DNA of 54,441 nucleotides from Prevotella sp. Lineage in GTDB: Bacteria > Bacteroidota > Bacteroidia > Bacteroidales > Bacteroidaceae. Positions 558-17,415 of the stretch are shown here, piece by piece; position 1 is the stretch's first letter; each line of letters opens with the position of its first letter. The notes under the pieces were generated by a model, which had not been told where the DNA came from, searched no databases, and saw nothing but the letters and a program-made list of their open reading frames with translations. The stretch covers positions 1 to 54,441 of the forward strand of contig JAFPWS010000030.1 of the NCBI GenBank assembly GCA_017412705.1. Direction: 5' to 3'. Position numbers and translations under genes: made by a program.

Positions 558-1505
558 CTATGCGCGGGTTGTCAGATAGTAGTCGCTGTAGTCCTTGCAG
601 CCCGGCGGCAGCTGATGGCGCACCAACGAGGGTAGCACTTGCTTCAGTTGCAGGAACAGACGTTCTCCTGGCGCATCGTTATCGGGAAACATCTCGAATT
701 TAGTTGAGAGTTGAGCGTGTAGAGTTGAGAGAATCTCCTTATCCTTTTTGCCCAGCAGCGTGGCCGAGGGGATGGCGATGGCCTTATGACCTGCCGAGAG
801 CAGGCTCCAGCAGTCGCTGCAACCCTCGGCAATGTAGAGTGCCTCGCCGGGCTTCAGAAGGTTCAATACCGGCAAACCGTAAAGTGAGCATTGCGACCCC
901 GTCGGGAAGCGGAAGCGGGGCTGGCCCCCTCCAACCTCCCCCTGAAGGGTGAGGCTCCCATCTCCTTTAGGAGAGGGGTTAGGGGTAAGGCTTAGATTCC
1001 TGTTCTGCACGCCAATCAGCTTGCCATCGCGGTCGTAGTAAGGCGTCTGCAGCCACGGCACGCCCTGGCGGTCTTTCCACGACGTCAGGCGGCACCAGCG
1101 CACCACCCTCGGGTCAATTCGCCGCTCGTCGAAGAGGAACCGCCGCGCCTCGTCGTTCAGCCAGGGATGCTCGAAGAACCGCTCGTAGCGCGAGGCGTCG
1201 AAGGGTTTTGGTGCCCAGTCATCCTCTTCCTTTTTGGGGAGAGGGATGGGGAGAGAGGCTTCCCCTGCCAGCCAACGGCAGGCGTCGCGGAAGTCCTTGT
1301 GAAGCACTTTCTGCACCAGGCTAATCGTGTCTCCACTCTCCCCACAACTCCAACATTTATACTTATTCTTCTTGAACGTCATCGAAGGTGTGTGGTCATC
1401 GTGAAACGGACACAAAGCCTTGTGTTGCTTAACCGTGATTCCAAGGCGTTGCGCCACGCTTTCACATAAAAGCGAGCGCAACTTCTCAAAATCCATTCTA
1501 TCCAT
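558..1505 (-). CDS. CHC2 zinc-finger / Toprim primase-like protein
   Basis: This 315-aa protein has a CHC2 zinc-binding site near the N-terminus (C32, H35, C51, C54) and a Toprim-like C-terminal part with the acidic residue in YIAEG (E226) and a DNDAPG acidic pair near residue 276. These are the marks of DnaG-type primases of phages, plasmids and conjugative elements; the C-terminal helicase-binding domain of a chromosomal DnaG is absent, so this is not the housekeeping enzyme. Three stretches look like translated repeats rather than conserved protein: residues 84-95, 171-195 and about 259-268. They keep the frame open. It lies 3 bases downstream of the DUF3987-like gene and is probably co-transcribed with it. 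Whether it is still active is unclear. Confidence 0.7.
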   Translation of the reverse strand: MDRMDFEKLRSLLCESVAQRLGITVKQHKALCPFHDDHTPSMTFKKNKYKCWSCGESGDTISLVQKVLHKDFRDACRWLAGEASLPIPLPKKEEDDWAPKPFDASRYERFFEHPWLNDEARRFLFDERRIDPRVVRWCRLTSWKDRQGVPWLQTPYYDRDGKLIGVQNRNLSLTPNPSPKGDGSLTLQGEVGGGQPRFRFPTGSQCSLYGLPVLNLLKPGEALYIAEGCSDCWSLLSAGHKAIAIPSATLLGKKDKEILSTLHAQLSTKFEMFPDNDAPGERLFLQLKQVLPSLVRHQLPPGCKDYSDYYLTTRA

Positions 1506-1508
1506 AGC

Positions 1509-3056: not shown

Positions 3057-3410
3057 TTACTCCTCTTCTATAAAGCCTTTTAAAGCCTCGCGGATCTCGT
3101 TCATCACTTCAATGGAAAAGCGGTCTACGTTGAAGGAACCATCTATGTGCAGAGTTTTGAAGTTCAGACGTGGTTGACTATCACTCAGACGCTTGGTGCA
3201 TGTGATATGTCTTCCTTCAAAAGTATGGACATTGCGACGAGTGACAGTCGGAGGTAGATTAACTTCGTCGAATGCGTACTGGTCACCGTAAATATTACCT
3301 TCACTTGAAAGTTTGGCTCTTAGAATGCCTAAGTACTCTCGTCCAACCATGGGCTGTTCGTCGTGATGCAACCGGGTCGTCAAGTCGATGCAAAGCAAAA
3401 CTGTTTTCAT
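3057..3410 (-). CDS. hypothetical protein, 117 aa
   Basis: I do not recognise this protein. It is acidic to neutral, has no signal peptide or membrane segment, and reads as a mixed alpha/beta small domain beginning MKTVLLCIDLTTRLHHD and ending in an acidic EALKGFIEEE tail. Its start is supported by context: the ATG overlaps the stop of the upstream 62-aa gene in an ATGA arrangement and is preceded by a strong GGAGGTGA ribosome site, which is unusual in this genome and implies translational coupling. The two small genes therefore form a pair, apparently leading the leftward group of DUF3987-like and primase genes, perhaps as regulatory or accessory proteins of the same element. No function is claimed. 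Confidence 0.55.
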   Translation of the reverse strand: MKTVLLCIDLTTRLHHDEQPMVGREYLGILRAKLSSEGNIYGDQYAFDEVNLPPTVTRRNVHTFEGRHITCTKRLSDSQPRLNFKTLHIDGSFNVDRFSIEVMNEIREALKGFIEEE

Positions 3411-3595
3411 AGCTCACCTCCTTTCTCCGCGCTATTCTCGATGGATGCAAGGTGCTTGCGGCAGCTCTTTGCAAGAAGTAAATTACCAAGGGACATCTCT
3501 TTAATGATGTCTCCTACGCGGCGAGGCCTGCAATCTCTTCTGTTCAGTCCTCTGCCAGATGTCAATAAGCTTTCTTTGTTCATAATGAAAAGCAT
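3407..3595 (-). CDS. small basic hypothetical protein, 62 aa
   Basis: This short, basic protein contains NRRDCRPRRVGDIIKEM, which slightly recalls the start of DUF721/DciA-like proteins, but it is far too short for a firm call. The reason to accept it as a gene is coupling: its stop codon overlaps the start of the 117-aa gene (ATGA), and the GGAGGTGA ribosome site of that gene lies inside its last codons. A second ATG four codons in (at 3583) may be the true start. Upstream lies a cluster of AGGTA repeats that could control the pair. Confidence 0.45.
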   Translation of the reverse strand: MLFIMNKESLLTSGRGLNRRDCRPRRVGDIIKEMSLGNLLLAKSCRKHLASIENSAEKGGEL

Positions 3596-3636
3596 TTTTA
3601 GTTGCGGTCAAAATCAACCGTAGTGCAAAGGACGGA

Positions 3637-3712
3637 AGGTATTTTTAGGGCAGGAAAGGCCCTGTTTCAGGTACTTTCAGGTACTTAGGTATTTTCAGGT
3701 ATTATTAGGTAC
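3637..3712. repeat. cluster of AGGTAYTTTC direct repeats
   Basis: The pentamer AGGTA starts at 3637, 3669, 3679, 3687, 3697 and 3707, with spacings of 10, 8, 10 and 10 in the last five; the fuller unit is AGGTAYTTTC. The spacing near one helical turn places every copy on the same face of the DNA, as for a repeated operator or small iteron set. It lies between the terminator of the Argonaute operon and the start of the 62-aa gene, so it could be a regulator site for that leftward group. Confidence 0.5.
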
Positions 3713-3713
3713 A

Positions 3714-3756
3714 GAACAAAAAAAACTCGGAACATGGGTTTGGAACCAGTTCCGAG
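3714..3756 (-). terminator. intrinsic terminator of the RloA-RloB-Argonaute operon
   Basis: CTCGGAAC (3726-3733) and GTTCCGAG (3749-3756) are perfect inverse arms. Read leftward, the hairpin is followed by a run of eight or more T residues (3718-3725). It lies about 30 bases past the stop codon of the 385-aa gene and closes the four-gene unit. Confidence 0.85.
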
Positions 3757-3784
3757 GGCAATCTATTTTCCCAAAAGATTATTT

Positions 3785-4942
3785 CTAGCAATTCAGAAGC
3801 GTGATATATTCGTTGACAACTTGATCTATGTATGCGTATGCCCGATATTTTTCGGCATTTATATTATTCTTATTGAGGGACATTCGAACTGTGTGGAATG
3901 CAGAGCCACTCTCTTTTCCCATGACAACCTTTGAACATAAAGAGTCGTATTTGGACAAATTGAAGTTGACTCGCTGTTTTTCTTTTATCCACTTATAGAA
4001 TTCAAGATATTCAAGCATAGCACATGCATGACCTGGATTTTCAAGCATCGTCATAACGAGTCTGTGTACTTTCTCTTTGCTGCCAAGTTGCTTAATCTTT
4101 GGCATCTCTAAGAAGTTGAATTCAGAAACGCTGTCCAAGAATATGTCTGCTTTATCTTTTGGATGTTTCGTCTCAATGCTGGCCACAGAATCCTTGGTTT
4201 GTGGAGTATCAGACATATCGACCAACGTATTGACAGTAGCCGTTTTTATACCGCTTTGTTTTTTATACGTAGCTTCCTCATTACTTGTCGGATATTCGCC
4301 CTTCCATCCATAAACGAAGTCCATAAAGTCGTCCTCATATTCAGTTGCTTCGTAAGAATCCAGCACTTCTCCATAAGTATTAAGAAGAGTAAAATACAAA
4401 TGAGTAAGTTTTACAGGAATGAGCAACATCACATCTTTGTGTTCCTCCCATTGGAGTGCTTCCCGACAAATAAACTTTATCTTCCTGAATATAGCTTTTA
4501 ATGTACTACGGATAAAAGCATCGTCTTGAATTGCTCTGCACAAATATAAAATTGCTTGCCTCGTTCTTAATACTTCAGCATCTAATATGGTATTATAAAA
4601 GCGTAGCAAAGGGGACTTCAATTCGGGCAATGGCAGCACATTGTCAATGATCACCTCAGAATCTATATATTTGAATCGGAGTTCATTTTTGATAATCTTG
4701 TTGGCACGTACATGTAATGCAGCATCGCGGGTTTTCTTATCTTCTTCATAGATGTCTTTGGTGTTAACAAGACCACTTAGCACATCATTGATGGCAAATT
4801 CTAACTCCAACAATTGGCTCTTTTGAGAAATCTTTCGAGCATTACGTATCAGCAGCTCTAATTCTTTCTGATCAAGAGACTGTTTCAATATGTTAGGGCG
4901 TAACTCGCCTCTGAGAATGCTGTCGGTAATTGGAAGTGTCAT
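3785..4942 (-). CDS. unrecognised Argonaute-associated protein, 385 aa
   Basis: I do not recognise this family. Residues 1-215 are predominantly helical and charged, 216-265 form a polar linker rich in Ser, Thr, Lys and Asp, and 266-385 form a second helical block containing a MGKESGSAFHTVRMSL stretch that looks ordered. There is no signal peptide, membrane helix, HExxH, PD-(D/E)xK, HD or P-loop motif that I can see, so it does not match the nuclease, SIR2 or membrane effectors known beside other inactive Argonautes. It begins 11 bases after the Argonaute stop and is followed by a strong terminator, so it is the last gene of a four-gene defence operon. It could be an effector, a loading partner or an inhibitor; a remote link to RteC-like regulators crossed my mind but is weak. 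Confidence 0.7.
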   Translation of the reverse strand: MTLPITDSILRGELRPNILKQSLDQKELELLIRNARKISQKSQLLELEFAINDVLSGLVNTKDIYEEDKKTRDAALHVRANKIIKNELRFKYIDSEVIIDNVLPLPELKSPLLRFYNTILDAEVLRTRQAILYLCRAIQDDAFIRSTLKAIFRKIKFICREALQWEEHKDVMLLIPVKLTHLYFTLLNTYGEVLDSYEATEYEDDFMDFVYGWKGEYPTSNEEATYKKQSGIKTATVNTLVDMSDTPQTKDSVASIETKHPKDKADIFLDSVSEFNFLEMPKIKQLGSKEKVHRLVMTMLENPGHACAMLEYLEFYKWIKEKQRVNFNLSKYDSLCSKVVMGKESGSAFHTVRMSLNKNNINAEKYRAYAYIDQVVNEYITLLNC

Positions 4943-4953
4943 ACGTTAACAAT

Positions 4954-7122
4954 TTATAGCATCCAAAGATTCTTGCGTCCAAACTCTGGCAATTCTTCAT
5001 AGCTGAAATGAGGAACGTACTTAGCAACGAGTTCTGGGTACGCAATGGTAATCGGCACATTCTGCATTTTGACAGATTTCCAATAGAGCCTACAGAACTG
5101 ATACACCTGAGTAATAATCTCTCTTACTACTTGATAATCTAGGTTATTGATGCCGTTGTTCGACCCGTTACTGATTGTCAGTTTTATAGGATAGAGTTTG
5201 TCGGCCTTTCCATTGGGGGTGTATCTCTCATTATTATAAAGCAAATACTCTGTACCACGAAGATGAATATAGGTTCCACTCATTGGCATCTTGTCAAACT
5301 GAGACAAATCGAAGGCTATTAAATCCTCATTGCTAGCAGTAACCACGTTGACAACATAAATCGGACAATCTATATCACATTGACGCAACATGTTTTCAAT
5401 TTGCTCGGATTCCTCACGCTTCAATTTTTTCTTGTAATAATGAATAATAAGGCGATCGGGTTTTCCGTAATCTTCGCAGAAATTCAAAATGGATTTCTTC
5501 AGGTCGCTCTGCAGGGTTTCCGTGTCATCAGCTCTGCAAGAATTGAAATTGCGGAAACTACCCTCTTTGTCAAAACAGAAGGCACTTCCAAGGTAGGGTT
5601 TCTTGATGCCCCTCTGTTTGCAGGCTCCAATGCCGACAATCATATCGTTTCCCTTGACCAGACTCTTCACGCCCCATGCCATTCCGCCCATTTTGCCGAC
5701 AAGGGCAGCGGCGATGTTAGGTATAAACCAGTTGAAAGAAGTACTATCTATGTTATTCCGATATATCACTTGAGATGTGATACCATACTGCATGAGTAAT
5801 TCTTTCATAAGATAGTATAGCTCATGCCTCTCTTTGTTTTGATCATCACGATGTATGTCGGTAATTATTATAGCGATGTATTTCTGGTCGGTGTGAAAAC
5901 GAGAAGACTGTAAGTGCTTCCTGATTTCTGCAATTGCCGTCTGGTCAGATGTATAGGTGCAACTAAGACCTCCTTCCCATATTGGTCTTTGTAATAGATA
6001 CTCAGCTATGGGTTTATCAATGGTTTTTGCATTTATTCTCGCATCTTCTTTTTTCCTAAACTCTTTGTCTTTTTCATCTACAGGCTTACTCCAATTGCCA
6101 TAACAATAATCTTTTGCATATTGTAGGATATTGAACAACCGCATCCTATAGAATTTTGATGTATCATCATCCTTCGTAATAAAAAAATAGGTAAAGGGAG
6201 TCTCTGGTCGTTTATACGGGCCATGATTACGAAACTCTAAACGAGGAGACTTGCCATCAGTTCTATCACCATAGACCAATTCTTTGGCTTCTTCATCCAC
6301 CATCATTACCTTGTCTGCTGGTAACGAGATGAACTGGTTGCCATTAGGGAAGATTACGCCAACCTCACGTTTGAAGTCATCTGTGCAAATCCATGAGTCA
6401 AGAAATGTTTGAGCGGCAGCAAGTTTGCTGGCGAATTTATCAGTTTCCCTTTTGTGGGAACATTTAATGCCAACGGTACCACTAATGCCTGGATTTACAA
6501 TAGGATAGAACAGGCCGTTTGTCGCAGTCCAATGTCTTTGCTCGATTCTTTTTATGGGTATCACACAATGGTTGCAAATCACATCATACCCATCTTGTGG
6601 CAATTCGGCAATATCCTTAACCGGAGTCATCGAAACAACAGAATTTCTTCCCTCGGCTATATCTAATTGCCATCCATCACATTGGTCGTTGAATCTGGGT
6701 TGTATAGTAAATTTCTGATATGAGGTGCTCACATCATCTTCTTGTGCTTTCATCCACACCTCGACTCTTCCTATAAAATCTCGGTGGCATGGGCAATTTC
6801 TTTTCCTGAAATACCTGACAATACTCTGTGTAAGTACAGCTTTTGCCAGCCTTACATTCTTGCTCATGTCAAACTCTGCCTGATAATTTTTTTCAGGAGT
6901 AATACCTATTGTCTCTTCTTCCCAGTAGTTGAAAAAGACCTCATCTTCTTTTTCTATTTCTGAACATTGGTTCCACAAGAAATCGTCACGTCCAACGGAC
7001 ATACGAATACTGTTTTTCTTGTAAGCATTCTGATAACTTACACTAAGACCACCAATGCCTGCAAAAATGTCAATGACTCTGACCTCGTTGGTCAACTCGA
7101 TTTTGGTACTATTTACTATCAT
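4954..7122 (-). CDS. long prokaryotic Argonaute with inactive PIWI domain
   Basis: The 722-aa length and domain order (N, linker, PAZ-like, MID, PIWI) fit a long pAgo. The MID pocket for a guide 5' end is recognisable: a tyrosine pair near 436-437, K440, Q451 in GITSQV, and K477 in LVGKMGG. The PIWI domain starts at MIVGIGA (494-500), where the first catalytic Asp is replaced by Gly498; the usual Asp after IIH is Tyr562; the last position lies in PITIAYPELVAKY and has no catalytic acid. It therefore should bind guide and target but not cut, like long-B pAgos that act through partners. Residues 15-26 (RVIDIFAGIGGL) closely resemble motif I of C5 cytosine methyltransferases, an odd feature. It sits 17 bases after RloB and 11 before the 385-aa gene. 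Confidence 0.85.
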   Translation of the reverse strand: MIVNSTKIELTNEVRVIDIFAGIGGLSVSYQNAYKKNSIRMSVGRDDFLWNQCSEIEKEDEVFFNYWEEETIGITPEKNYQAEFDMSKNVRLAKAVLTQSIVRYFRKRNCPCHRDFIGRVEVWMKAQEDDVSTSYQKFTIQPRFNDQCDGWQLDIAEGRNSVVSMTPVKDIAELPQDGYDVICNHCVIPIKRIEQRHWTATNGLFYPIVNPGISGTVGIKCSHKRETDKFASKLAAAQTFLDSWICTDDFKREVGVIFPNGNQFISLPADKVMMVDEEAKELVYGDRTDGKSPRLEFRNHGPYKRPETPFTYFFITKDDDTSKFYRMRLFNILQYAKDYCYGNWSKPVDEKDKEFRKKEDARINAKTIDKPIAEYLLQRPIWEGGLSCTYTSDQTAIAEIRKHLQSSRFHTDQKYIAIIITDIHRDDQNKERHELYYLMKELLMQYGITSQVIYRNNIDSTSFNWFIPNIAAALVGKMGGMAWGVKSLVKGNDMIVGIGACKQRGIKKPYLGSAFCFDKEGSFRNFNSCRADDTETLQSDLKKSILNFCEDYGKPDRLIIHYYKKKLKREESEQIENMLRQCDIDCPIYVVNVVTASNEDLIAFDLSQFDKMPMSGTYIHLRGTEYLLYNNERYTPNGKADKLYPIKLTISNGSNNGINNLDYQVVREIITQVYQFCRLYWKSVKMQNVPITIAYPELVAKYVPHFSYEELPEFGRKNLWML

Positions 7123-7139
7123 TTGTTGTATGATGGAGT

Positions 7140-7958
7140 TTATTTCTTTATCTTATACTTCCTATTTTTATACTCACCCTCTATTTCAAGAACTCCTTCA
7201 TCCACGAGTTGTTTGAGGTAGTCACGGGTTCTTGAGGGTTTGAGTCCGATGGCTTTTGCAACAGATTTTGAATCCGAAATCTCGTTATCGGCGATAAAAT
7301 CGATGATTTGTCGCCGATTTTCCTCATTTCGATTTTGGTTTTCCGTTTTTTGCTCGTTTTTGTCAGCCTCCTCTTCATCCATCGACGCTATCAGATTAAA
7401 CACCAAATGCATCTGGCTGTATGCCATTCTGTCCTCGGGCGAGGCCTCGCTCAATCGACTCAGTTCCTCGGCATAACTGATGGCCCGCTGCAGGTCGCCA
7501 TTCTCCGTCAAGTACTTGTAAAGATTGTTCTTCTTGAAATAGCGTGCCGTCTTCTCATAGCTGGGCATATAGCGCTGCAAGTCAGGCAGCACATCCTCAT
7601 AGGTTTCGTAATGCTTGGAGGTAAGCTGTGGCAGGAAGTGGAGCAGAAACCAGAACTCCGTGCATGGATTGGTCTCAATCCATATCACGTTGCGTGGGCT
7701 TTTCTTCTTCAATTGCTGATAGGTGGCCATTTCCGCTGGCACCCTGAGCAGACGGTCCATATCCACAAGGCATACCACGTAGTCAGTATCGCGCTTAACG
7801 TATTCTTCTGCCAGCTTTGTCATGTGCGAGATGTCCGAATGCTGGGGGAAGTCTGGCGCCACCTTGAACTTATAGCGGCAAGCGATGCGGAGCGTGTCGA
7901 AGTACCACCACTCCGTCTCGCCCTCGCCTATGATTGCTATACTCTTCTTGACCGCCAT
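7140..7958 (-). CDS. rloB: RloB-like protein with C-terminal winged helix
   Basis: The N-terminal 200 residues match the RloB family: a Toprim-like acidic start (IGEGETEWWYFDTL, residues 10-23), DYVVCLVDMDRLL, and the family signature WIETNPCTEFWFLLHF. RloB proteins pair with RloA-type ATPases, in the same general design as OLD or PARIS systems: an ATPase sensor and a Toprim nuclease-like effector. The protein is 272 aa, longer than the roughly 200-225 aa I expect; the extra tail (about 208-272) has the layout of a winged helix-turn-helix (SKSVAKAIGLKPSRTRDYL, then a basic wing) after a Glu/Asn/Lys-rich linker. The tail may bind DNA for autoregulation or target sensing. It follows RloA by 3 bases and precedes Argonaute by 17. 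Confidence 0.75.
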   Translation of the reverse strand: MAVKKSIAIIGEGETEWWYFDTLRIACRYKFKVAPDFPQHSDISHMTKLAEEYVKRDTDYVVCLVDMDRLLRVPAEMATYQQLKKKSPRNVIWIETNPCTEFWFLLHFLPQLTSKHYETYEDVLPDLQRYMPSYEKTARYFKKNNLYKYLTENGDLQRAISYAEELSRLSEASPEDRMAYSQMHLVFNLIASMDEEEADKNEQKTENQNRNEENRRQIIDFIADNEISDSKSVAKAIGLKPSRTRDYLKQLVDEGVLEIEGEYKNRKYKIKK

Positions 7959-7961
7959 GTG

Positions 7962-9257
7962 CTACTCAGTTTCAAGGTAAATACTTCCGAGGAAAGGCAG
8001 GTCCACCAGCTTGCCCTGCTTGTAGGCGTTGTACGGATTCATCGTCTTGTGCAGGCCGAGAGAAGAGAGTCGCTTCAGCTGCGTAGCACCCTGATTGCTC
8101 TTGTCGGTAAACCACACGATGTCCCTACGGATGAAATCCTCATTCAACAGGTTGATGTCGTGGGTGGTCATCAGCAGCTGCGACGAACCCTCGCTGTTAG
8201 CCAGAAATAGTTTGATAAAATAAGCCAGCAGCTCATAGTGGATGCTCGTCTCAATCTCGTCGATGGGGATGAAATTGTTCTCGTGCAGCACGTAGTACAG
8301 CACAATTGACATGCCCAAGAATCGATGCGTACCGGCAGACTCCAGCCCCTCATGCAACTCGTACTGTCCGTCCTCACCCGTATGACTGAACATGATGTCG
8401 TCGTGCTTAATAGTGCCACGACGGAGCATCTCTATCTTTGCTTCCTCGGGTATCGGGGCACCCTTGATGGCGGTTTCCATATCGGGTGTTATCTGGTCTT
8501 CGCGCTCGTCGAGCGTCATGTCAACGATGTTAAAATCACTAGCCTTCAGCAACTGGAGCAGAAAAAGCTTTTTCTTGCCGTCCTTGTCATTTCGAAGTTC
8601 GTTTTTCACATCGAACGACAGATAGTCTCTTGGAGTCAAGATACCCTGAATGCCCGAAAGGAAAAAGTCAAACACATCGTTCAACTTTGACACGTGAGCA
8701 TTCGACTGTCCGAAGGCTGCCATCACCGTGCAGTTGTTGGTGGTGTTGCCCTCGATGGCGCGCTGTGTGGCCTTGTCAATACCAGCCTTGTTACCGAAGA
8801 TGACCTCCGTATGGTCGGACTCCGATTGATAGACACGTTTATACAGAGAGGTCGGGCGTGCGCTGGTATATACTATCAACGACTCTTCATAGATTCGCTT
8901 GCTGTCGAATTCCAGGTTCAGAACATACTTTTCTCCGTTCAGCCAGAATGTCATCTGCATATGCGAATGCTCTTCCCTGCTGTGTTTGTCGAGCAGGAAC
9001 GGGTAGTAACCCATGCCGTCATTCTTCGACTCTGGCTTGTTGAGCATGATGCTACGGAAATACGAGATGGCATTAAGCAACGTGGTTTTACCGCTGGCGT
9101 TGCTACCATACACGATGCCAATCTTTAGGAGTTCCACTCCCTCAGCTACTTCGTGTACGTATTGTCCACGCATATTACCATCGTTGGTCGGCACAAAACT
9201 GATGCTTTGCCGTTCCCTGATGCTATAGAAATTCTGTACTTGAAACTCCTGTATCAT
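7962..9257 (-). CDS. rloA: RloA-like AAA/ABC ATPase
   Basis: From the ATG at 9255-9257 the product is 431 aa and opens MIQEFQVQNFYSIRE, the usual first strand of AAA_15/RloA ATPases. Walker A is GSNASGKTT (51-59). A Walker B acid pair appears in IPIDEIETSIHYE and the switch His in TTHDINLL. The longer reading to 9353 was rejected because a strong promoter lies inside it (9290-9321) and the conserved fold begins at the chosen Met. Such ATPases sense phage components and control a Toprim partner; here RloB is the next gene. It heads the operon that also holds the Argonaute. RloAB pairs are often found inside restriction loci, and one lies next door. Confidence 0.8.
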   Translation of the reverse strand: MIQEFQVQNFYSIRERQSISFVPTNDGNMRGQYVHEVAEGVELLKIGIVYGSNASGKTTLLNAISYFRSIMLNKPESKNDGMGYYPFLLDKHSREEHSHMQMTFWLNGEKYVLNLEFDSKRIYEESLIVYTSARPTSLYKRVYQSESDHTEVIFGNKAGIDKATQRAIEGNTTNNCTVMAAFGQSNAHVSKLNDVFDFFLSGIQGILTPRDYLSFDVKNELRNDKDGKKKLFLLQLLKASDFNIVDMTLDEREDQITPDMETAIKGAPIPEEAKIEMLRRGTIKHDDIMFSHTGEDGQYELHEGLESAGTHRFLGMSIVLYYVLHENNFIPIDEIETSIHYELLAYFIKLFLANSEGSSQLLMTTHDINLLNEDFIRRDIVWFTDKSNQGATQLKRLSSLGLHKTMNPYNAYKQGKLVDLPFLGSIYLETE

Positions 9258-9289
9258 AGTCGTACCACTAAACAATTGAATTTTGAGTG

Positions 9290-9321
9290 CAAATATACAA
9301 CAAGAAAGCCAAAAATCCAAA
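9290..9321 (-). promoter_or_regulatory. promoter of the RloA-RloB-Argonaute operon
   Basis: Minus strand TTTG (9318-9321), 20 bases, TATATTTG (9290-9297): a full match to the Bacteroidetes consensus. Transcription would start near 9283, about 26 bases before the RloA ATG at 9257. No other good promoter is visible inside the operon, so the four genes probably share it. Confidence 0.8.
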
Positions 9322-9500
9322 TTTAATTCAATAATTCGTGAAAAACTCACCAAAATTTAAGCATAAATAACCATTATCGGTTTCAAACCCGCTAAATCGG
9401 CAAATAAATCTCAAAAACATGGCTATGTCAATACGGCTACTGACACCGCCACCTTTGCGATCGTTTCTATTAAATAATGTGTAAATTTGCGATAATCTGT

Positions 9501-9530
9501 TTTGGTTTCGATTATTTTTTTGTAATTTTG
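9501..9530 (+). promoter_or_regulatory. promoter of the leader RNA / type III locus
   Basis: TTTG (9501-9504), 18 bases, TAATTTTG (9523-9530) reads rightward. It diverges from the RloA promoter and drives the 9531-9829 leader. The 179 bases between the two promoters show no gene. Confidence 0.6.
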
Positions 9531-9829
9531 CAACAAGTATCGCCCAATCGTCGTAGACGGCGCAAGCTTCGGCTGATTCCCAGAGTGCAGGGTGGCGGTG
9601 CGACATTGAGGGTAAAATATAGCGTTTGCTGTTTACAGAACATTCCAAAGCTTGGTCGCAAAGGATTTCTAAGTAAAACATGCAGACGTTCACGCTATGC
9701 GTGGGCGTTACTTGTTTCTTAGAAGGGTATGACCAAGCACCTGGAATGTGGATGAGTAATCGTCCACGTTTCTTTTGTTTGGTCAGGCTTTTGTTTTTTA
9801 GAGAGCAGCGCATAAACGAACATACGCTT
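9531..9829 (+). ncRNA. long structured leader RNA before the restriction locus
   Basis: The leader of about 300 bases holds a nested hairpin whose arms I could pair by hand: 9640-9646 with 9743-9749, 9650-9657 with 9731-9738, 9667-9673 with 9718-9724, and 9686-9695 with 9699-9708 (two G-U pairs, loop TAT). Four successive perfect or near-perfect stems separated by internal loops show RNA-level selection. The open frame 9680-9829 upstream of the Res ATG is then best read as part of this RNA and not as protein. It may be a free small RNA (a 6S-like rod shape comes to mind) or a cis-acting leader of the restriction genes; a T-rich stretch near 9768-9800 could end a short form. I also recall seeing similar sequence elsewhere in Prevotella, which I cannot verify here. 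Confidence 0.65.
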
Positions 9830-12800
9830 ATGCAAGCCAATAACGACAATCCCGTACTGAACAATCCGTACGAGGAACCGCAGTATTACTACGACACCGA
9901 TATGAACGGTAACATAGACTATGCCACCGTTATCAATGGACGACGGCCATTCGGCTATGACGTGAATATCGTGCCCAAAAAACGAGGAGAGAAGACTTTC
10001 TTCTCGCAAGAAGACTTTATATCAGTTGATCCCAATGCCGAGTTTATCAATGGCATCCGTAAGGAGGTGAAACAATGGCGTGAGGCTGGTTATCCTAAAG
10101 CATCACGTATCACCAAAGAACTCTTGGACTTCTGGTTTAACAATAAGGATCGAAGACCCAATCTCCGACTCTTCTTCTGCCAGCGTGAAGCTGTGGAAAC
10201 GGCTGTTTGGCTGAACGAGATAGCAGAGCGCGACCCCAATACAGGTAACTATATCCTGAATCTGTTGGGCGAACGCCGGCATACCGTATCGACAGACGAT
10301 GCCTATGTGTTGCCTCGTACTGCGTTCAAGATGGCAACAGGAACAGGCAAGACGGTGGTGATGGCGATGCTCATCCTCTACAACTACCTGAACAAGCGGG
10401 CCAATCCGATGGATACCCACTATGCCGACCACTTCCTGCTTTGTGCGCCAGGCATCACCATTCGCGACCGACTTTCAGTATTGCAGTTGGACTATAGCCA
10501 GCGCAGCAACAACTTCGAACGAACGGACTACTACCATCAGCGCGGATTGATACCACCTCAATTCGAAAAAGAACTGGGTGGACTGAATGCCAGCATCACT
10601 ATTGTCAATTACCAACAGTTCCTACCTCGTGTGTTTTCAGGCAAGCATGCTTCGCCTCTTGACGGCAAACAGAAATGGGTGGATGGAGAACTGGTGACGC
10701 AAAAGGATAAAGAGGACTATAGCGTCATGCTGAGTCGCATCTTGGAAAAAGGCGTTAAGGGTAAGCGCATCGTGGTTATCAACGACGAGGCCCACCATTG
10801 TTATTTGCCTAAGCAAAACAAAGACAAGAGCTTGACGGACGACGAGAAGAGCGACCTGAAACAAGAGAACGAGGCCGCTATGGTGTGGTATGAAGGTCTG
10901 CGACAGATGAAACTGTTGGGTTATAAACTACAGCAGGTATATGACCTCTCTGCTACACCTTATTATCTGAAAGGCTCAGGCTATCCGGAATACTCCCTAT
11001 TCCCCTGGGTAGTGAGCGACTTCGGTCTGGTGGATGCCATTGAGAGTGGTTTGGTGAAGATTCCATTCTTGCCAGCTTACGACAATACGACCGACTTGGA
11101 TGAACCCAAGCTGCGTAATATCTACGAAAGTATCAAAGACAAACTGCCCAAGCGTGGCATTCGTGCCCAGAAGAAAAAAGATAAGGAAGATCGCTCGGCC
11201 GAAGGACGCTTGCAAGGCAAGAATGTAGATACATCCATCTTGTCTGTACAGGCACCTAACCTGCCAACGCTTCTGAATACGGCGCTTGAGCAGTTCGTAA
11301 AAGACTACGAGGACTATGACAGAGGTCTGCGTCAGGCTTACGAGGCCATGGGAACACTCTATACGGCTCCGCCTGTATTGATAGTGGTCTGCAACAATAC
11401 CACCGTTTCACATGAGGTCTATCGCGACATTGCCGGCTATCAGGACGGTGTCAACGAAGATGGTGAGCCTCGCTATCGTAAAGGTCGTTTCGACGTGTTC
11501 TCGAACTATGATGGTATGGGCTTGCCCAAAGAAAAGTTCCCAACCTTGTTAATAGATTCTTCAGCACTTGATGAAGCATCAACCCGCATTGACGAGGCAT
11601 TCAAGAAAGCATACGCCAATGAGATAGAGGAATTCCGTCACGAATATGCCAATCAGCACGGTGCTGGTTCTGCCGATAACCTGACGGATGCAGATATTCT
11701 GCGAGAAGTGGTGAATACCGTCGGCAAGCCTGGCAAGTTGGGTGGCGATATTAAATGTGTGGTCAGCGTGTCGATGCTGACGGAAGGTTGGGACGCCAAT
11801 ACCGTTACCCATGTCTGTGGCATCCGTGCCTTTGGCAGTCAGCTGTTGTGTGAACAGGTGGTAGGTCGTGCCTTGCGTCGTCAGAGTTATGACTTGATTC
11901 CATACGACAAATTAGGACGAGAGATAGATCGTAAAGACCTCTATAAATATAAAGAGGAGAACATCACCTACAAGTTCCCACCAGAATACGCCCGTATTAT
12001 TGGTGTGCCTTTCAACACCTTTAAAGGTGGTGATACGGTAGTAACCAAACCTCAGAAGCCCAAGGCCATTATCCGTGCTTTGCCCGAGCGCAAAGAAATG
12101 GAGATTCGATTCCCTGTCATTACAGGCTATCGCTCGGATAATATCGAGGGTTCGTTGACAGCAGACTTTACTGGTCTTCCCAAATTCCAGCTCAACTTCA
12201 ATCAGATTCCTACCGAAACCGTTTTGCAGACCGTAGTGAATGGTGATCAGAAGATGCTCAAAACAGACTATATGGAACTGCGCGATTTGCAGGTCATCTA
12301 TTACTTTGCCCATCTGATGATTCGCGAATACTATACCAGTCGTGAGCATGGCCAGCAGTTCCAGAAGTTCCCTGACATCAAGCAGATTGTAGAGACATGG
12401 TATAATGAGCAACTGGAGATTGTTGGTGGCGATGGCAGCACAGAGCAGAAACGTCTGGTGATGCTCTGGAACTACAAGGCTGTGCTTGACAACATCATGG
12501 AAGGTGTTCATAAAGCCAATGAGGACCACGAGGAGATTTCTGCTGTGCTCAACTACTACAATCCGGAAGGCAGTACCATCCACGTATATCGTCCCACGAA
12601 CAAAACGGTCTATCCAACACAGAAGAGTCATGTCAACTACGTGATAGCCGAAGACAACAGTTGGCAGCAGATTGCAGCCAAGACGCTCGACGCGATGGAG
12701 TGCGTAGAGTGTTGGGTAAAGAACACCTATCTTGGTTTCCGCATCCCTTATACCGTTGGTGATGAGAATAAGGAATACCAGCCAACATTCATTGTTCGTG

Positions 12801-13000
12801 TAAAAGGAATAAACCTCATTGTGGAGTGTGAAGACTTCGACAGCGATAAGTCAGGCAACAAAGAGGCCAAGCGCCACTATCTGAAAGATTACTGGATTCC
12901 TGCTGCCAACAATCTCAAGACATACGGTACTTGGGATTTGCTGGAAGTAAGAGATATTGATCTGTTGGAGAGTGAAATTATAAAAGCTATTGACTTATGA
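9830..13000 (+). CDS. type III-like restriction subunit R (BPTD_3080-like), nuclease motif altered
   Basis: This is a superfamily 2 helicase of 1056 aa from the ATG at 9830, chosen because the upstream 50 codons overlap the structured RNA. Walker A is KMATGTGKTVV (about 167-177), the DEAH-type box is NDEAHHCY (near 317-324), and helicase motif VI-like sequence appears in EQVVGRALRRQSY. Res subunits translocate and cleave DNA together with Mod. In the C-terminal nuclease region the expected PD...ExK pattern reads PT (985-986) and VECED (998-1002), so the first Asp and the Lys appear replaced and cleavage may be lost or altered. It leads the locus, with an antisense toxin-antitoxin pair between it and the methyltransferase, an uncommon layout. 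Confidence 0.75.
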   Translation: MQANNDNPVLNNPYEEPQYYYDTDMNGNIDYATVINGRRPFGYDVNIVPKKRGEKTFFSQEDFISVDPNAEFINGIRKEVKQWREAGYPKASRITKELLDFWFNNKDRRPNLRLFFCQREAVETAVWLNEIAERDPNTGNYILNLLGERRHTVSTDDAYVLPRTAFKMATGTGKTVVMAMLILYNYLNKRANPMDTHYADHFLLCAPGITIRDRLSVLQLDYSQRSNNFERTDYYHQRGLIPPQFEKELGGLNASITIVNYQQFLPRVFSGKHASPLDGKQKWVDGELVTQKDKEDYSVMLSRILEKGVKGKRIVVINDEAHHCYLPKQNKDKSLTDDEKSDLKQENEAAMVWYEGLRQMKLLGYKLQQVYDLSATPYYLKGSGYPEYSLFPWVVSDFGLVDAIESGLVKIPFLPAYDNTTDLDEPKLRNIYESIKDKLPKRGIRAQKKKDKEDRSAEGRLQGKNVDTSILSVQAPNLPTLLNTALEQFVKDYEDYDRGLRQAYEAMGTLYTAPPVLIVVCNNTTVSHEVYRDIAGYQDGVNEDGEPRYRKGRFDVFSNYDGMGLPKEKFPTLLIDSSALDEASTRIDEAFKKAYANEIEEFRHEYANQHGAGSADNLTDADILREVVNTVGKPGKLGGDIKCVVSVSMLTEGWDANTVTHVCGIRAFGSQLLCEQVVGRALRRQSYDLIPYDKLGREIDRKDLYKYKEENITYKFPPEYARIIGVPFNTFKGGDTVVTKPQKPKAIIRALPERKEMEIRFPVITGYRSDNIEGSLTADFTGLPKFQLNFNQIPTETVLQTVVNGDQKMLKTDYMELRDLQVIYYFAHLMIREYYTSREHGQQFQKFPDIKQIVETWYNEQLEIVGGDGSTEQKRLVMLWNYKAVLDNIMEGVHKANEDHEEISAVLNYYNPEGSTIHVYRPTNKTVYPTQKSHVNYVIAEDNSWQQIAAKTLDAMECVECWVKNTYLGFRIPYTVGDENKEYQPTFIVRVKGINLIVECEDFDSDKSGNKEAKRHYLKDYWIPAANNLKTYGTWDLLEVRDIDLLESEIIKAIDL

Positions 13001-13008
13001 TTATGGAA

Positions 13009-13425
13009 TCATATAGAACGTTCAAATGTCGTAGCATCAACAATACGACAGGTTCCAACTTCTTGCAACACCAGCAAGTCCTGATCGCCTGTCACCAAAT
13101 AATGGGCACGAGCCTCTATGGCAAGTGCCAGAAGGTAATCGTCAGCTTCGTCTCTGCAAAGCTTTACAGTCTGAGCGGATTCAAATGGCTCACCAATAAT
13201 CTGCAAAAACTCAATCAGAGATTCAACATCTTTAGCTGGGAAATATTTGGCAAATTTTGGACGAGTCGTAACCTCTTGGATTTCAGCAAGCAACTCACTA
13301 CAGATAATCAGCTGAATGCGCTCGTTACTCAGCAAATCGACGAGTTTGGAGAGTCGCCGACCTATCAAAAAACTGATCCAGCAGTTAGTATCAACTATGA
13401 CGTGCAGTTTAGACTTTCTTGGCAT
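13009..13425 (-). CDS. PIN-domain toxin
   Basis: The product of about 138 aa is a PIN-fold ribonuclease of the putative toxin (PIN family) type. The acidic metal-binding residues are visible in VIVDTNCWISF (first Asp), the Glu of SELLAEIQEV, and the DEADDYLLALA and LVTGDQDLL segments. PIN toxins cut RNA, often tRNA or mRNA. A GTG nine bases upstream (13434) is an alternative start. The gene overlaps the end of the antitoxin-like gene (13409-13425 shared), the usual arrangement for a coupled pair. It converges with Res: the two stop codons are only 8 bases apart, so there is no room for a terminator between them. Confidence 0.75.
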   Translation of the reverse strand: MPRKSKLHVIVDTNCWISFLIGRRLSKLVDLLSNERIQLIICSELLAEIQEVTTRPKFAKYFPAKDVESLIEFLQIIGEPFESAQTVKLCRDEADDYLLALAIEARAHYLVTGDQDLLVLQEVGTCRIVDATTFERSI

Positions 13426-13630
13426 AACGCTCACGTCTTACAGCCTTTACTTCAGCCAAGATATCTTCTTCAGAGATTTCGTCTGTACGAAACTTCTCAA
13501 GGAATTGGTTCAGCTCCGTGCGAATGGTCTTGCGCGTCAAGGCTTTACCTATACGCAGTTGCGAACGTATGGGCATCTGCTGGAGGAGCAATAGGACTTG
13601 ATTGTAACTGATGTCTATTGTTGCATTCAT
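13409..13630 (-). CDS. probable antitoxin partner of the PIN toxin, 73 aa
   Basis: A 73-aa charged, helical protein starts at the ATG 13628-13630 (MNATIDISYNQVLLLL) and ends with a basic VRRERYAKKV tail. Its size, position just before the PIN gene, overlap with it, and own promoter at 13655-13685 fit the antitoxin of a type II module; the first third (SYNQVLLLLQQMPI) looks like the short N-terminal part of Bacteroidetes antitoxins next to PIN toxins. The longer upstream reading to 13765 was rejected since it overlaps the promoter and the methyltransferase start. It lies antisense between the restriction and methylation genes. Confidence 0.65.
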   Translation of the reverse strand: MNATIDISYNQVLLLLQQMPIRSQLRIGKALTRKTIRTELNQFLEKFRTDEISEEDILAEVKAVRRERYAKKV

Positions 13631-13654
13631 ACCTGTATATTTAATAGTCTGCTG

Positions 13655-13685
13655 CAAAGATAAGCATAAAATCCGAATAAACAAA
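13655..13685 (-). promoter_or_regulatory. promoter of the toxin-antitoxin pair
   Basis: Minus strand TTTG (13682-13685), 19 bases, TATCTTTG (13655-13662). Start of transcription near 13648 leaves a leader of about 18 bases before the antitoxin ATG. It lies within the last 46 bases before the methyltransferase start, on the other strand. Confidence 0.75.
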
Positions 13686-13700
13686 TAAAAACAAGATAAA

Positions 13701-16334
13701 ATGAACAAAATAGATAACGTTAGGCCCGTTTCGAGCATCAAGCACGACGACAAGCGTGCAGCCATTCCCGATAGTGCCCATCAGGGAGAGGAACAGATGG
13801 CCATCAGCGGCATGCCAGAACAGAGTGAGTACGACATCTTCCGTCATGAGTTCCAGCGTGGTAGAGACCCGGAACTCTATTGGCTCAACAAGTATAAGAA
13901 TGATGATGAGGACAATCCTGACTATATGCCGCAACTGCGTACAGACATCCGAAGCCTGTATAAACATGAAGACATCCGTCCGGAGGCCATCATCGATAGT
14001 CTCTATGAACTGCATGAGCATAAGAGCGAGAGTGCCAAGCTACAGCTCGACTTGTTCGGTGATTTTGAGGAAGAGCAAGAGGATGAACTGGAACGATTGG
14101 CAGGCTACTACAAGCATAGCGACAACTGGCAGAATCGATTGATTCAAGGTGATAGCTTGTTGGTGATGAACTCCTTATTGAATCGTGAGGGCATGAAGGG
14201 GCAGGTACAATGCATCTACTTTGATCCGCCGTATGGCATTAAGTATGGTGGAAATTGGCAGATGAAGATAAATAGTACTAACGTCAAGGAGAGCGATGAC
14301 GGAATGACAGGTGAACCAGAAATGATAAAGGCTTATCGAGATACTTGGCTTGATGGTATTCATAGTTATCTATCTTACTTACGGGACAGATTAGTTATGG
14401 CTCGAGAACTATTAACTGAAAGTGGCTCCTGTTTTGTACAAATATCAGATGAGAATGTACATCTTGTGCGTAGCTTAATGGATGAAGTGTTTAGTAGTGA
14501 TAATTTTGTTGATCAGATAATTTATCAAAAAACGACGGGAGCAGGTAGCCCTGGCGAATTGACTGCCCCAGCATCTATTGCTGATTATATAATTTGGTAT
14601 GCAAAAGATAAAGCAAATCTTAAATATAGAAAGTTATTCGTTCCTAAAGAATATGGTGGTCAAGGAGGGGACGCATATAAATATATTGAATTGGAAAACG
14701 GTAAGAGATTATCAATTTCTCAATGGGAAAAAGACAATGATATATCATTTAACTACAGTAAACGTCCTAAAGGATCACGCGTCTATAGATTAAGCGATAT
14801 GCGTTCTCACTCAGGTGGTGATAATGCGAGATTTCCTATAATTATGGATGATAAGGAGTATAGGATAACCTCAGGAAGTTGGAAAACGAACGAAAAGGGA
14901 ATGTACAATCTTATCAAAAAAGGACGAGTGGTTTCTGGAGGAAACACTTTGACATATGTCAGATATTTAGATGATTTCCCTGTTCAAAACTTAACGAACT
15001 TATGGACTGATGTCTCAAGTAGTGTTGGTGACAAACTATATGTTGTACAGTCAAGTACAAAACCTGTTCAGCGTTGCATTCTTATGACAACAGATCCTGG
15101 CGACCTTGTTCTCGATCCAACATGTGGTAGCGGAACAACTGCATACGTTGCAGAGCAATGGGGACGCAGATGGATTACCATAGATACGAGTCGAATAGCG
15201 TTGAATATCGCCAAGAAGCGACTGACAACGGCAATCTTCCCTTACTACAAGACTCACGATGATAGCGAGAATCCCAATATCCGTAGAGGCTTTGTATATA
15301 AGAAAGTGCCTCATATCACATTGAAAGCTTTAGCCAACGATTTGCCTTTTGATGAAGAAACCCTTTACGACCAGCCAGAGGAGGATAAGAAGCGAATTCG
15401 TGTGAGTGGCCCATTTACCGTAGAGACCTTGCAAAGCCTTGATGTCAGTTCACCAGAGAGCTTGAATGACAAACAGAACGACTACGATGAATATGCTGCC
15501 TTTACGGAGCGCATCTTTAATAACTTGAAGGCTAATGGTATCCGTAATGGCGTGAAACAGCAACAGGCTGTGATGCACTCGATGGAGCATTTGGATGAAC
15601 CTTATCTGAATGCCAAGGGCTATTTTAAGATGGAGGATAGCACAGAGCATTGTGTCTACTTTATGATAGGCCCAAAATTTGGAACAGTTAGCAAGCACGC
15701 TGTGAACGAAGCCGTACGTGCTTTCCGTCAGCATCTGAACGAATCGAACTGGCTGGTGATACTCGGCTTCTCCTTTGAAGACAGCATTGAGAGTGGCGAG
15801 AACAAGGACTATAACTTTGGAACTTTCCAAGTGTCGAAGGTTCGCATGAGCGATGACCTGCTACAAGACGGTCTGCTAAAAAAAGATAAGAAAGCCGGCT
15901 CGTTTATCATCATTGGTGAGCCTGATATCAGCCTCGTCAACGACGGTAATGGCAAGTGTCATGTAGAGATCAACGGCATGGATATGTATGATCCCATCCA
16001 AGATGAGGTAAAAGCCCGCAACGTGAATGACATCGCCTATTGGGAGATGGACGACAACTATACGGGTGGTCTCTTCAAGGTGCGCAGTATCCACTTCTGC
16101 GGTGGCGACAAGAAAGACTTTGCCGTCTGGCGCAAAGGGCTCGATACGGTAGCCAAAGACCTAGCCAAGAAAAAGGCCGAGCGTACCCTTCGTTTAGAGT
16201 TCAACGATGAAATATGGGACACGCTCTACGACTTCAAGAGCGAGCCAATCCCCTACGAGCAGGGCAAGAAAATAGCCGTGCGTGTAGTCTCTCAGTTTGG
16301 CGAGGAAACAACAAAGGTTTTGACAATGGAATAA
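13701..16334 (+). CDS. type III-like adenine DNA methyltransferase (Mod)
   Basis: The 877-aa protein is a beta-class N6-adenine methyltransferase: catalytic motif IV DPPY (175-178) comes before the AdoMet-binding motif I (DPTCGSGTT, near 471-479). Between them lies the target-recognition region. A long C-terminal extension would contact the Res subunit. The gene ends two bases before the EVE-HNH gene starts. Base composition changes sharply: about 14240-15110 is strongly AT-rich with different codon use, exactly between motifs IV and I, whereas both flanks are near the genome average. This suggests that the specificity region was exchanged by recombination. I see no rightward promoter just upstream, so the gene may depend on read-through from Res across the antisense toxin pair. 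Confidence 0.85.
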   Translation: MNKIDNVRPVSSIKHDDKRAAIPDSAHQGEEQMAISGMPEQSEYDIFRHEFQRGRDPELYWLNKYKNDDEDNPDYMPQLRTDIRSLYKHEDIRPEAIIDSLYELHEHKSESAKLQLDLFGDFEEEQEDELERLAGYYKHSDNWQNRLIQGDSLLVMNSLLNREGMKGQVQCIYFDPPYGIKYGGNWQMKINSTNVKESDDGMTGEPEMIKAYRDTWLDGIHSYLSYLRDRLVMARELLTESGSCFVQISDENVHLVRSLMDEVFSSDNFVDQIIYQKTTGAGSPGELTAPASIADYIIWYAKDKANLKYRKLFVPKEYGGQGGDAYKYIELENGKRLSISQWEKDNDISFNYSKRPKGSRVYRLSDMRSHSGGDNARFPIIMDDKEYRITSGSWKTNEKGMYNLIKKGRVVSGGNTLTYVRYLDDFPVQNLTNLWTDVSSSVGDKLYVVQSSTKPVQRCILMTTDPGDLVLDPTCGSGTTAYVAEQWGRRWITIDTSRIALNIAKKRLTTAIFPYYKTHDDSENPNIRRGFVYKKVPHITLKALANDLPFDEETLYDQPEEDKKRIRVSGPFTVETLQSLDVSSPESLNDKQNDYDEYAAFTERIFNNLKANGIRNGVKQQQAVMHSMEHLDEPYLNAKGYFKMEDSTEHCVYFMIGPKFGTVSKHAVNEAVRAFRQHLNESNWLVILGFSFEDSIESGENKDYNFGTFQVSKVRMSDDLLQDGLLKKDKKAGSFIIIGEPDISLVNDGNGKCHVEINGMDMYDPIQDEVKARNVNDIAYWEMDDNYTGGLFKVRSIHFCGGDKKDFAVWRKGLDTVAKDLAKKKAERTLRLEFNDEIWDTLYDFKSEPIPYEQGKKIAVRVVSQFGEETTKVLTME

Positions 16335-16335
16335 T

Positions 16336-17415
16336 ATGAGATACTGGATAGTTCCAAGTAACGACAGTACCTTCCGTATTGGTGATGCTATTGCAGCACA
16401 AGACGGAATGGCAGACTGGAGGACCGATAAGTTCTCCGTAGGGGACATCGTATTCATCTACAAAACGATTCCTGAGAAGCGCATCCATTACAAGATGGAG
16501 GTCATTAAAGTGAAGATGATCTTTGACGAGGCTTTCGAACAGGAACCTTTCTGGACGGATAAAGATCAATATTATGTTGGAATCACATCCTTCTATGCCA
16601 GATTCAAATTGCTTGAAGAATATACGGATGATATCTTGTCGTTGCACCACCTGCACGAGCATGGCTATCAAGGCATACCCCGTAGCGTTAGGGAGGTTAA
16701 GGAGGAGGGACTGTTAGATTTTCTGCTGCACCCTCATCAGATGGTGAATGAGGATGTGTATGATGTGGACTACCCCGAAGACGACGATAAGCTCTACGAG
16801 GGGGCATTGGTCAGGGTGATGGCCAATAAATATGAGCGCAACCAAAAGGCTCGCAGGGAGTGTGTCGCCAAAAAAGGATATCTGTGTCAAGTCTGCGGGC
16901 GGAACTTCGAAACCATCTATGGAGAAATCGGTAAGAATTTCATTCATGTGCATCACTTAACTCCAATTTCTTCTATTGGAAAAGAATATCAGCTCAATGT
17001 AGATACAGACTTAGCACCAGTCTGTCCCAACTGTCACTATATGCTGCATCGGAAGGACCCACCTTACACGATTGCAGAATTGAAGGAAATATTAGCAAAG
17101 CAAAGTGAGACAGTAGAGACAAAACAGAAACGCAGAAAGAAGGCAGAAACTTTTTGGCTTCAAACTGATGTTAATATGCTGAGAGATGTTAATGAAGATT
17201 CAGATGTGCGCAGACTCATTCATAATATGATGGAGATGGACGGAGGCACGATGATGAAGAACATTACATCTGTATGCATCGGACAGTTTGCTGAGCGTTA
17301 TTACGGGATGAAGCCCAATGACTGGCGACATTTGATAGATGAATATGTACGCAAGGTAACTTCTCGTCCTAAGCTTCAGGAGGATGAAGTCTTCAGATTC
17401 GTGATGACAGGGTGA
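16336..17415 (+). CDS. EVE-domain HNH endonuclease
   Basis: The 359-aa protein has an N-terminal EVE/PUA-like fold (MRYWIVPSNDSTFRIGD, then FSVGDIVFIYK and MEVIKVKM, to about residue 100), a spacer, and an HNH nuclease: CQVCGRNFE, then HVHHLTPIS, then LAPVCPNCHYMLH (roughly 185-240). EVE domains bind modified bases, and EVE-HNH fusions are a known type of modification-dependent restriction enzyme. A charged C-terminal part of about 100 aa is of unknown role. The start lies 1 base after the Mod stop codon, so translation is probably coupled. Sitting behind a methyltransferase, it may read a different modification than the one Mod makes, or serve as the nuclease of the locus. Confidence 0.75.
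   Translation: MRYWIVPSNDSTFRIGDAIAAQDGMADWRTDKFSVGDIVFIYKTIPEKRIHYKMEVIKVKMIFDEAFEQEPFWTDKDQYYVGITSFYARFKLLEEYTDDILSLHHLHEHGYQGIPRSVREVKEEGLLDFLLHPHQMVNEDVYDVDYPEDDDKLYEGALVRVMANKYERNQKARRECVAKKGYLCQVCGRNFETIYGEIGKNFIHVHHLTPISSIGKEYQLNVDTDLAPVCPNCHYMLHRKDPPYTIAELKEILAKQSETVETKQKRRKKAETFWLQTDVNMLRDVNEDSDVRRLIHNMMEMDGGTMMKNITSVCIGQFAERYYGMKPNDWRHLIDEYVRKVTSRPKLQEDEVFRFVMTG

Follow-up and report, generated by a model that had tools for sequence, protein, structure and literature searches.

Stacked defence modules, more probably than one four-gene system, at an Argonaute locus of a Prevotella mobile element

The question raised by this locus is whether four genes that lie close together on the minus strand of a Prevotella sp. 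contig (JAFPWS010000030.1) form one defence system. The stretch analysed, called the window throughout, is 54,441 nucleotides (nt) long, and the genes, in the order in which they would be transcribed, encode RloA, RloB, a catalytically inactive prokaryotic Argonaute (pAgo) and a protein of 385 amino acids (aa) (Table 1). The first-pass annotation of this DNA had joined them into a fixed four-gene union. The reading favoured here, to which a probability of about two in three is given, is that an integrated mobile element of Bacteroidota carries them as modular cargo, in stacked defence modules and not as one four-gene system; a single system is unsupported because RloAB and pAgo–385 each occur apart, with breakpoints of homology and of composition between them.

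Much of the annotation stood. The four gene identities were recovered (AAA_21/AbiLi, RloB/AbiLii and Piwi/pAgo, with no library match for the 385-aa protein), the Argonaute was indeed inactive, and the operon-like layout was all present, with gaps of exactly 3, 17 and 11 bases between the minus-strand open reading frames (ORFs) of the window, a promoter at 9321-9290 and a terminator with 8 T. A single transcript across the four genes, as predicted from this layout, is plausible. The promoter has the form TTTG-N20-TATATTTG, which we take to be the Bacteroidetes consensus; TTTG-N17..23-TAnnTTTG has four matches on both strands of 17.6 kb, and the minus strand from 3700 to 9700 has just three TAnnTTTG boxes, at 9325, 9297 and 4548. 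The 62-nt stretch with the terminator stem CTCGGAAC/GTTCCGAG has a folding energy of -17.7 kcal/mol. A sigma-70 and short-loop scan, whose models probably do not cover such sites, reported neither promoter nor terminator, and its sigma-70 promoter matches were no more frequent than in shuffled sequence (10 versus 13.5).

What did not stand was the union itself. A pattern search through a collection covering 84,980 species gave 359 relatives of the pAgo, and the best 80 of these were kept. All four genes were found together in none of these 80 other pAgo loci, and no homologue of RloA or RloB was detected in them by phmmer at E<1e-4, five of the 80 showing no upstream gene. With a less strict ATPase profile, AAA ATPases do turn up next to a few of these pAgos. 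The annotation had named the separate occurrence of the two pairs as the result that would speak against it, and this is what was seen in both directions: the neighbourhoods of 12 of the 42 RloB places, drawn from the top matches apart from the window, had RloA before RloB in all 12 and a pAgo within three genes of the pair in none (one contig, L079, ends 266 bases past RloB), and RloAB lay upstream of pAgo–385 in none of the seven relatives having upstream DNA. Among 301 genomes of the family, RloB was present in 39 (E<=1e-10) and pAgo in five (E<=1e-20); the two co-occurred in only two genomes, that of the window and G047, where they are on different contigs, so that the repeated linkage expected from the annotation was reduced to the window.

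Judged by its gene content and order, the RloA–RloB pair is an ordinary, common AbiL abortive-infection pair. RloA was matched by AAA_21 (2e-23, Pfam) and AbiLi (1.3e-66, PADLOC), and RloB by the Pfam families RloB (4e-27) and HTH_24 (1.3e-5) and by AbiLii (2.6e-22, a partial match to the model), which gives the AbiLi-type AAA ATPase followed by an AbiLii/RloB gene that marks AbiL. Gene order, ATPase and RloB/AbiLii family are those of AbiL, which is also present in other genomes of the family; the window differs in having a pAgo 17 bases downstream and in the end of its RloB, where residues ~205-272 form an extra winged-helix tail (~68 residues) that is absent from relatives of 60-65% identity. 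These relatives are ~195-227 aa long and stop near residue 200, just where the composition of the window gene shifts, and for this reason the tail was probably fused in frame where the modules join. A stretch similar to the tail (7143-7346) occurs in a 127-aa ORF of another locus, L206 (E 6e-6).

The pairing of the 385-aa gene with the pAgo, also claimed by the annotation, was borne out by the nearest relatives, in all eight of which (L086-L093) a homologue follows the pAgo directly. Behind three distant pAgos (L007-L009), the downstream protein was matched by a profile of integrase-adjacent proteins (E 4e-8 to 2e-5; see below). The pairwise distances of nine pAgo and 385-aa proteins were correlated with r=0.96 (permutation p=0.0002), and with 0.94 (p=0.008) when the window and its nearest relative, L086, were left out. 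The dN/dS ratio (nonsynonymous to synonymous substitution rates) between these two was ~0.08 for both genes, with dS saturated for the 385 gene, and on this measure both are under purifying selection. L086 has a pAgo that is 85% identical, and upstream of it a divergent helix-turn-helix (HTH)-like gene (by eye) and MjaI-type restriction-modification (R-M) genes, but no RloAB. In the window clade, the nearest upstream gene is 171-252 nt away from the pAgo in six of seven loci, the seventh (L089) having a 61-aa ORF at 19 nt that is probably spurious, and a TAnnTTTG box lies <=300 nt upstream of the pAgo in six of the seven and is missing in L087, a raw count without a chance control. The pAgo in this clade would normally stand behind a leader of its own. 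No TAnnTTTG box lies within the window RloB, and the native promoter region of the pAgo was therefore apparently replaced when AbiL arrived. As far as comparative data go, the pAgo–385 pair is a real unit, a conserved variant of the long-B theme.

The boundaries of the modules became visible when the window was aligned by BLASTN with its relatives. Positions 574-917 and 994-3076 (primase and DUF3987-like gene) matched L190 at 65% and 78%, whereas 3361-7133 (start of the 117-aa ORF, terminator, 385 gene and pAgo) matched L086 at 78%, in a block whose end lies 11 bases short of the pAgo start, and 7480-8273 (RloA/RloB) matched stand-alone AbiL loci at ~65%. The GC content at third codon positions is 0.66 in RloA and 0.70 in RloB residues 1-204, falls to 0.40 in the RloB tail, 0.42 in the pAgo and 0.40 in the 385 gene, and is 0.61 and 0.69 in the DUF3987-like and primase genes. 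The window is thus a mosaic, in which the homology blocks have different relatives and the composition agrees.

The pAgo was matched by the PADLOC pAgo model (3.5e-155 over residues 47-722) and by Piwi (5.6e-14, Pfam). In an alignment with CpAgo, whose VGLD Asp and HRxG we take to be catalytic positions, the window has VGIG, with Gly at the first Asp position, and HYYK in place of HRxG; among 13 aligned pAgo sequences, Gly stands at the first position in 12 and Asn in one (L034). The guide pocket (Y436, K440, Q451, K477) is invariant across the 13. The Piwi domain without catalytic tetrad and the YK-type 5′-phosphate pocket are those of a long-B pAgo, and the label long-B-like is drawn from the nearest solved structures, AfAgo, CpAgo and EcAgo (profile match and alignment). 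The N-terminus contains FAGxGG, which presumably resembles motif I of cytosine methyltransferases, at 7048-7065 (residues 20-25), as in L086, L087 and L090; it is found at residues 57-62 in L007, 69-74 in L008 and 44-49 in L009, and is degenerate in other members.

The partner gene is harder to place. The 385-aa protein had no match in Pfam, PADLOC or NCBIfam, and in Pfam neither it nor its eight homologues contain a nuclease or SIR2 domain; DUF6617 (PF20322) does not match the window protein and reaches 25.1 bits in its relative in L145 against a cut-off of 27. The AlphaFold2 model consists of helices only (predicted local distance difference test 78.4, predicted template modelling score 0.58), and comparison of its fold with solved structures was uninformative. 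The integrase-adjacent profile was built from 13 proteins of the larger set of pAgo loci, none from the window clade and 12 of them (all but that of L130) from loci with an integrase match. Among 1685 ORFs, it found the window protein with E=3e-7 and that of L086 with 4e-11, and hhalign gave 97.6% over columns 1-215, with 0.1% for the reversed control. By these profile comparisons, the 385-aa protein is a homologue of a family whose genes lie next to the tyrosine integrase gene in Bacteroidota mobile elements. Proteins in L167-L169 were likewise matched, by the C-terminal half of the profile; the ~3.4 kb examined there showed no pAgo, and in L168 and L169 an integrase, HTH or DUF3987-like neighbour was noted by eye.

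Such an element is represented by L145, with the Pfam-verified order MnmE, HTH_17, phage integrase, 385-family member, HTH_17, BT4734-like_N (presumably the former VirE_N), PriCT_2/DUF3987 and HTH_3. In the window and most of its clade, the order is pAgo, 385, ORFX, DUF3987-like gene and primase, where ORFX was traced by eye, the sequences of L086 and L092 stop short of the core, the DUF3987-like gene of L090 is in two ORFs and the middle gene of L088 is unmatched by the query. A tyrosine integrase directly before the family gene, as in L145, is not found in the window clade, where that neighbour is the pAgo; the pAgo thus holds the position of the integrase, and tyrosine integrase queries matched in none of the seven clade loci, other recombinases being looked for by eye. 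The DUF3987-like protein of the window has no Pfam family of its own, and its relatives (E<=1e-10) occur in 39 of 151 family genomes. One of them, L190, has a 90% identical DUF3987-like gene preceded by two genes, A and B, that replace the pAgo and the 385 gene. In 20 other loci with this core, ORFX homologues precede the DUF3987-like gene in nine, and none has a pAgo among its listed genes; G047, whose core copy and pAgo share a contig, is outside the 20. The pair A (~340 aa) and B (~290-370 aa) stands in the pAgo–385 slot in nine of the 20 loci (L190, L191, L193, L200, L201, L203, L204, L205 and L207); no Pfam family above cut-off was found in the four pairs scanned, and it is a candidate uncharacterised system.

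The genes before the pAgo were followed through the wider family in the 67 of 80 loci with >=5 kb upstream, using phmmer with seed proteins and, for the 385 family, an iterative profile; these loci include many close kin, and the counts are raw, without a comparison with random loci. R-M genes were present in 46, some element core gene in 48 and at least two kinds of core gene in 38 (DUF3987 in 44, BT4734 in 30, integrase in 16, MnmE in 10), with four loci having none of the R-M or core kinds. In the clade itself, R-M genes of several types lie upstream in five of seven loci (L086, L087, L089, L091, L093), and L090 has an HNH_4 gene and L088 no match. A same-strand ORF <=25 nt upstream of the pAgo occurs in 46 of the 75 loci with an upstream ORF in view. 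HEC-01 stands directly before the pAgo in L130, Septu in L110 and L143, and a PtuA-like ATPase follows HsdS in L105 and L107; of the five ATPases scanned, those of L105, L107, L130 and L143 are hit by the AbiLi profile too (5e-16 to 3e-23), more weakly than by the PtuA or HEC-01A profiles. The three nearest upstream genes (>=150 aa, within 6 kb) were then compared between pAgos of >=75% identity, which form 83 pairs that are not independent, 12 of them without upstream genes. Of the 71 compared, 41 have none of the three genes in common, and 97%-identical pAgos were found behind unrelated genes. Within this sample the genes before the pAgo are exchanged quickly, unlike the 385 gene of the window clade.

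According to the reading of stacked modules, the RloA–RloB pair, an ATPase sensor with a Toprim effector, would have landed in front of a second module consisting of the non-cutting long pAgo and the 385-aa helical protein, and would now supply the sole recognised promoter of Bacteroidetes type for the window genes. The pAgo, with its Tyr-Lys-Gln-Lys pocket intact, would load a 5′-phosphorylated guide and bind matching invader nucleic acid without cutting it, and may signal onward through the 385-aa protein. Relatives of this protein are encoded beside an integrase, and its own role is probably DNA binding or the regulation of element functions. The modules would most likely act independently and add up to a layered protection of element and host. 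Several observations weigh against this reading. The four genes look co-transcribed; the 385-aa protein has no recognisable effector domain, which leaves the second module without an identified killer that RloAB would supply; and three kinds of ATPase–nuclease pair (AbiL, HEC-01, Septu) precede members of the pAgo family. Outside the window clade, 45 of 68 pAgos have a same-strand ORF (>=60 aa, called mechanically) <=25 nt upstream, which could mean that the pAgo is coupled to an effector there, and at least one upstream gene is common to 30 of the 71 close pAgo pairs. Finally, in five comparable loci, r was 0.93 for pAgo–385, 0.82 for 385–DUF3987-like and 0.78 for pAgo–DUF3987-like, so that the correlation of pAgo and 385 is not unique and is due in part to descent of the element as a whole.

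The tight gaps, the one promoter and the ATPase–nuclease pairs directly before distant sister pAgos (HEC-01 in L130; Septu in L110 and L143) are what would be expected if the four genes did form one system, the pAgo triggering the RloA ATPase–RloB Toprim pair upon guide-directed recognition and the 385-aa protein serving as adaptor. This is unlikely, as many R-M genes occupy the same upstream position, RloAB does not recur with pAgo in the 80 loci and is complete without it at all 12 places, the 85% identical pair of L086 does without RloAB, and the breakpoints fall between the modules. The pAgo might instead be a general guide-directed sensor that comes as the last gene of exchangeable nuclease cassettes (R-M, Septu, HEC-01, AbiL) and strengthens or redirects the one before it. 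The closely spaced upstream ORFs outside the clade, the R-M genes in 46 of 67 loci and the five loci in which a Septu, HEC-01 or PtuA-like ATPase immediately precedes the pAgo fit this proposal, yet it is doubtful: 97%-identical pAgos behind unrelated genes are what passive cargo exchange predicts, the window clade pAgo has its own leader, and the clustering of defence genes alone gives the same picture. Very unlikely is a service to the element itself, the pAgo sitting in the slot of the tyrosine integrase and steering, with the 385-aa protein, its targeting, excision or replication. The two gene orders, that of L145 (integrase, family member, HTH_17, primase/DUF3987) and that of the window clade, suggest it, as do the seven clade loci without an integrase match, but related Prevotellaceae elements hold the unrelated gene A in that slot, which is therefore not special to pAgo, and the search covered tyrosine integrases, with other recombinases judged by eye. 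That the pAgo replaced the integrase and, with the integrase-side protein, carries out guide-directed target choice, excision or replication control is a long shot; if true, it would be an Argonaute counterpart of the CRISPR-guided transposons.

Stacked modules, the reading preferred here, can be set beside known systems. AbiL is described as bicistronic, with AbiLii as the toxic Toprim effector, in the account of PMC10440598. Long-B pAgos, according to the sections of Song et al. 2023 (PMC10620215) that treat them, act with one associated effector, the nuclease type via guide-RNA-directed recognition, and the YK pocket is given as typical of them in PMC6299218. The BPAN, BPAS and BPAM systems share with the window an inactive long pAgo, a YK-type guide pocket and one conserved partner gene immediately after it, and the solved relatives found by profile include EcAgo; unlike theirs, the window partner has an all-helical model and no nuclease or SIR2 match, and resembles an element gene. 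As these types are stated to cover ~65% of long-B pAgos (Song et al., PMC10620215), about one third would be without an explained partner. The same source lists og_54 ('VirE N-terminal') as an associated protein of a long-B subclade and leaves its role open there. This recalls the BT4734-like_N and DUF3987 element genes of the pAgo family studied here (30 of 67 loci by phmmer, two members Pfam-verified), in which they are part of a mobile-element core, and the og_54 subclade and this family may be the same group; DUF3987 and VirE ATPases are predicted element helicases in PMC5862659. Septu (PtuA/PtuB) and HEC-01, directly upstream of sister pAgos, are ATPase–nuclease pairs in the same position as RloAB, but belong to other effector families and are complete known systems. 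In the survey of Ryazansky et al. (PMC6299218), restriction, DNA-binding and RND (resistance-nodulation-division) genes are placed near pAgos, with no defined operon composition in the parts that list them. One unexplained long-B group is now tied to a definable element core (integrase or pAgo, 385-aa family, HTH_17, BT4734/DUF3987, primase), which makes three roles of the pAgo open to test: an independent defence sensor, a sensor serving effectors that can be interchanged, or a component of the element. A further lesson of the locus is that genes spaced as in an operon need not, for that reason alone, form one defence system.

Table 1. Features of the window discussed in the text, from the four genes and their signals to the element core and the divergent R-M cargo.
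Feature	Position	Strand	Description
RloA / AbiLi	7962..9257	-	AAA_21 ATPase, 431 aa from ATG, first gene of the AbiL pair
RloB / AbiLii	7140..7958	-	Toprim-type effector, 272 aa
pAgo	4954..7122	-	Catalytically inactive long pAgo, long-B-like, 722 aa
385-aa helical protein	3785..4942	-	Constant partner gene of the window pAgo clade
Promoter, Bacteroidetes-type TTTG-N20-TATATTTG	9290..9321	-	Motif match
Terminator hairpin + 8 T	3714..3756	-	Stem CTCGGAAC/GTTCCGAG
ORFX, 117-aa ORF of element core	3057..3410	-	Homologues in other elements
DUF3987-like element ATPase/helicase, 439 aa	1509..2828	-	Named from relatives
CHC2 zinc-finger DnaG-type primase, element core	558..1505	-	Zn_ribbon_DnaG 4e-16
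BPTD_3080-family restriction enzyme, divergent R-M cargo	9830-13000	+	NF046055 958.7 bits, cut-off 800
Type III-like N6 methyltransferase, divergent R-M cargo	13701-16334	+	MTase_III 4.3e-171
HNH protein, divergent R-M cargo (R-M region 9830..17415)	16336-17415	+	HNH 4.7e-7

Within the R-M locus of the window, a toxin–antitoxin pair lies antisense between the restriction and methyltransferase genes (13009-13765, minus strand); one member has a PIN domain (PIN_3 3.8e-21), and the other, the ORF of which overlaps the methyltransferase start, resembles the antitoxin VapB15 with 65.3 bits, short of the cut-off of 80. In the wider family, mnmE was found in ten pAgo element loci (L108, L115, L126, L127, L135, L136, L141, L145, L148, L151), and in the five with gene order read (L108, L115, L127, L141 and L145) the element begins just downstream of it, which suggests a preferred insertion site of pAgo-carrying elements. 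In L108, L141 and L145, the pAgo is followed by a FUR-family regulator (Pfam-verified in L145), the start of which overlaps the pAgo stop, and then by a large RND efflux pump-like protein (by eye); FUR matches were obtained for six of 47 scanned downstream neighbours of pAgo.

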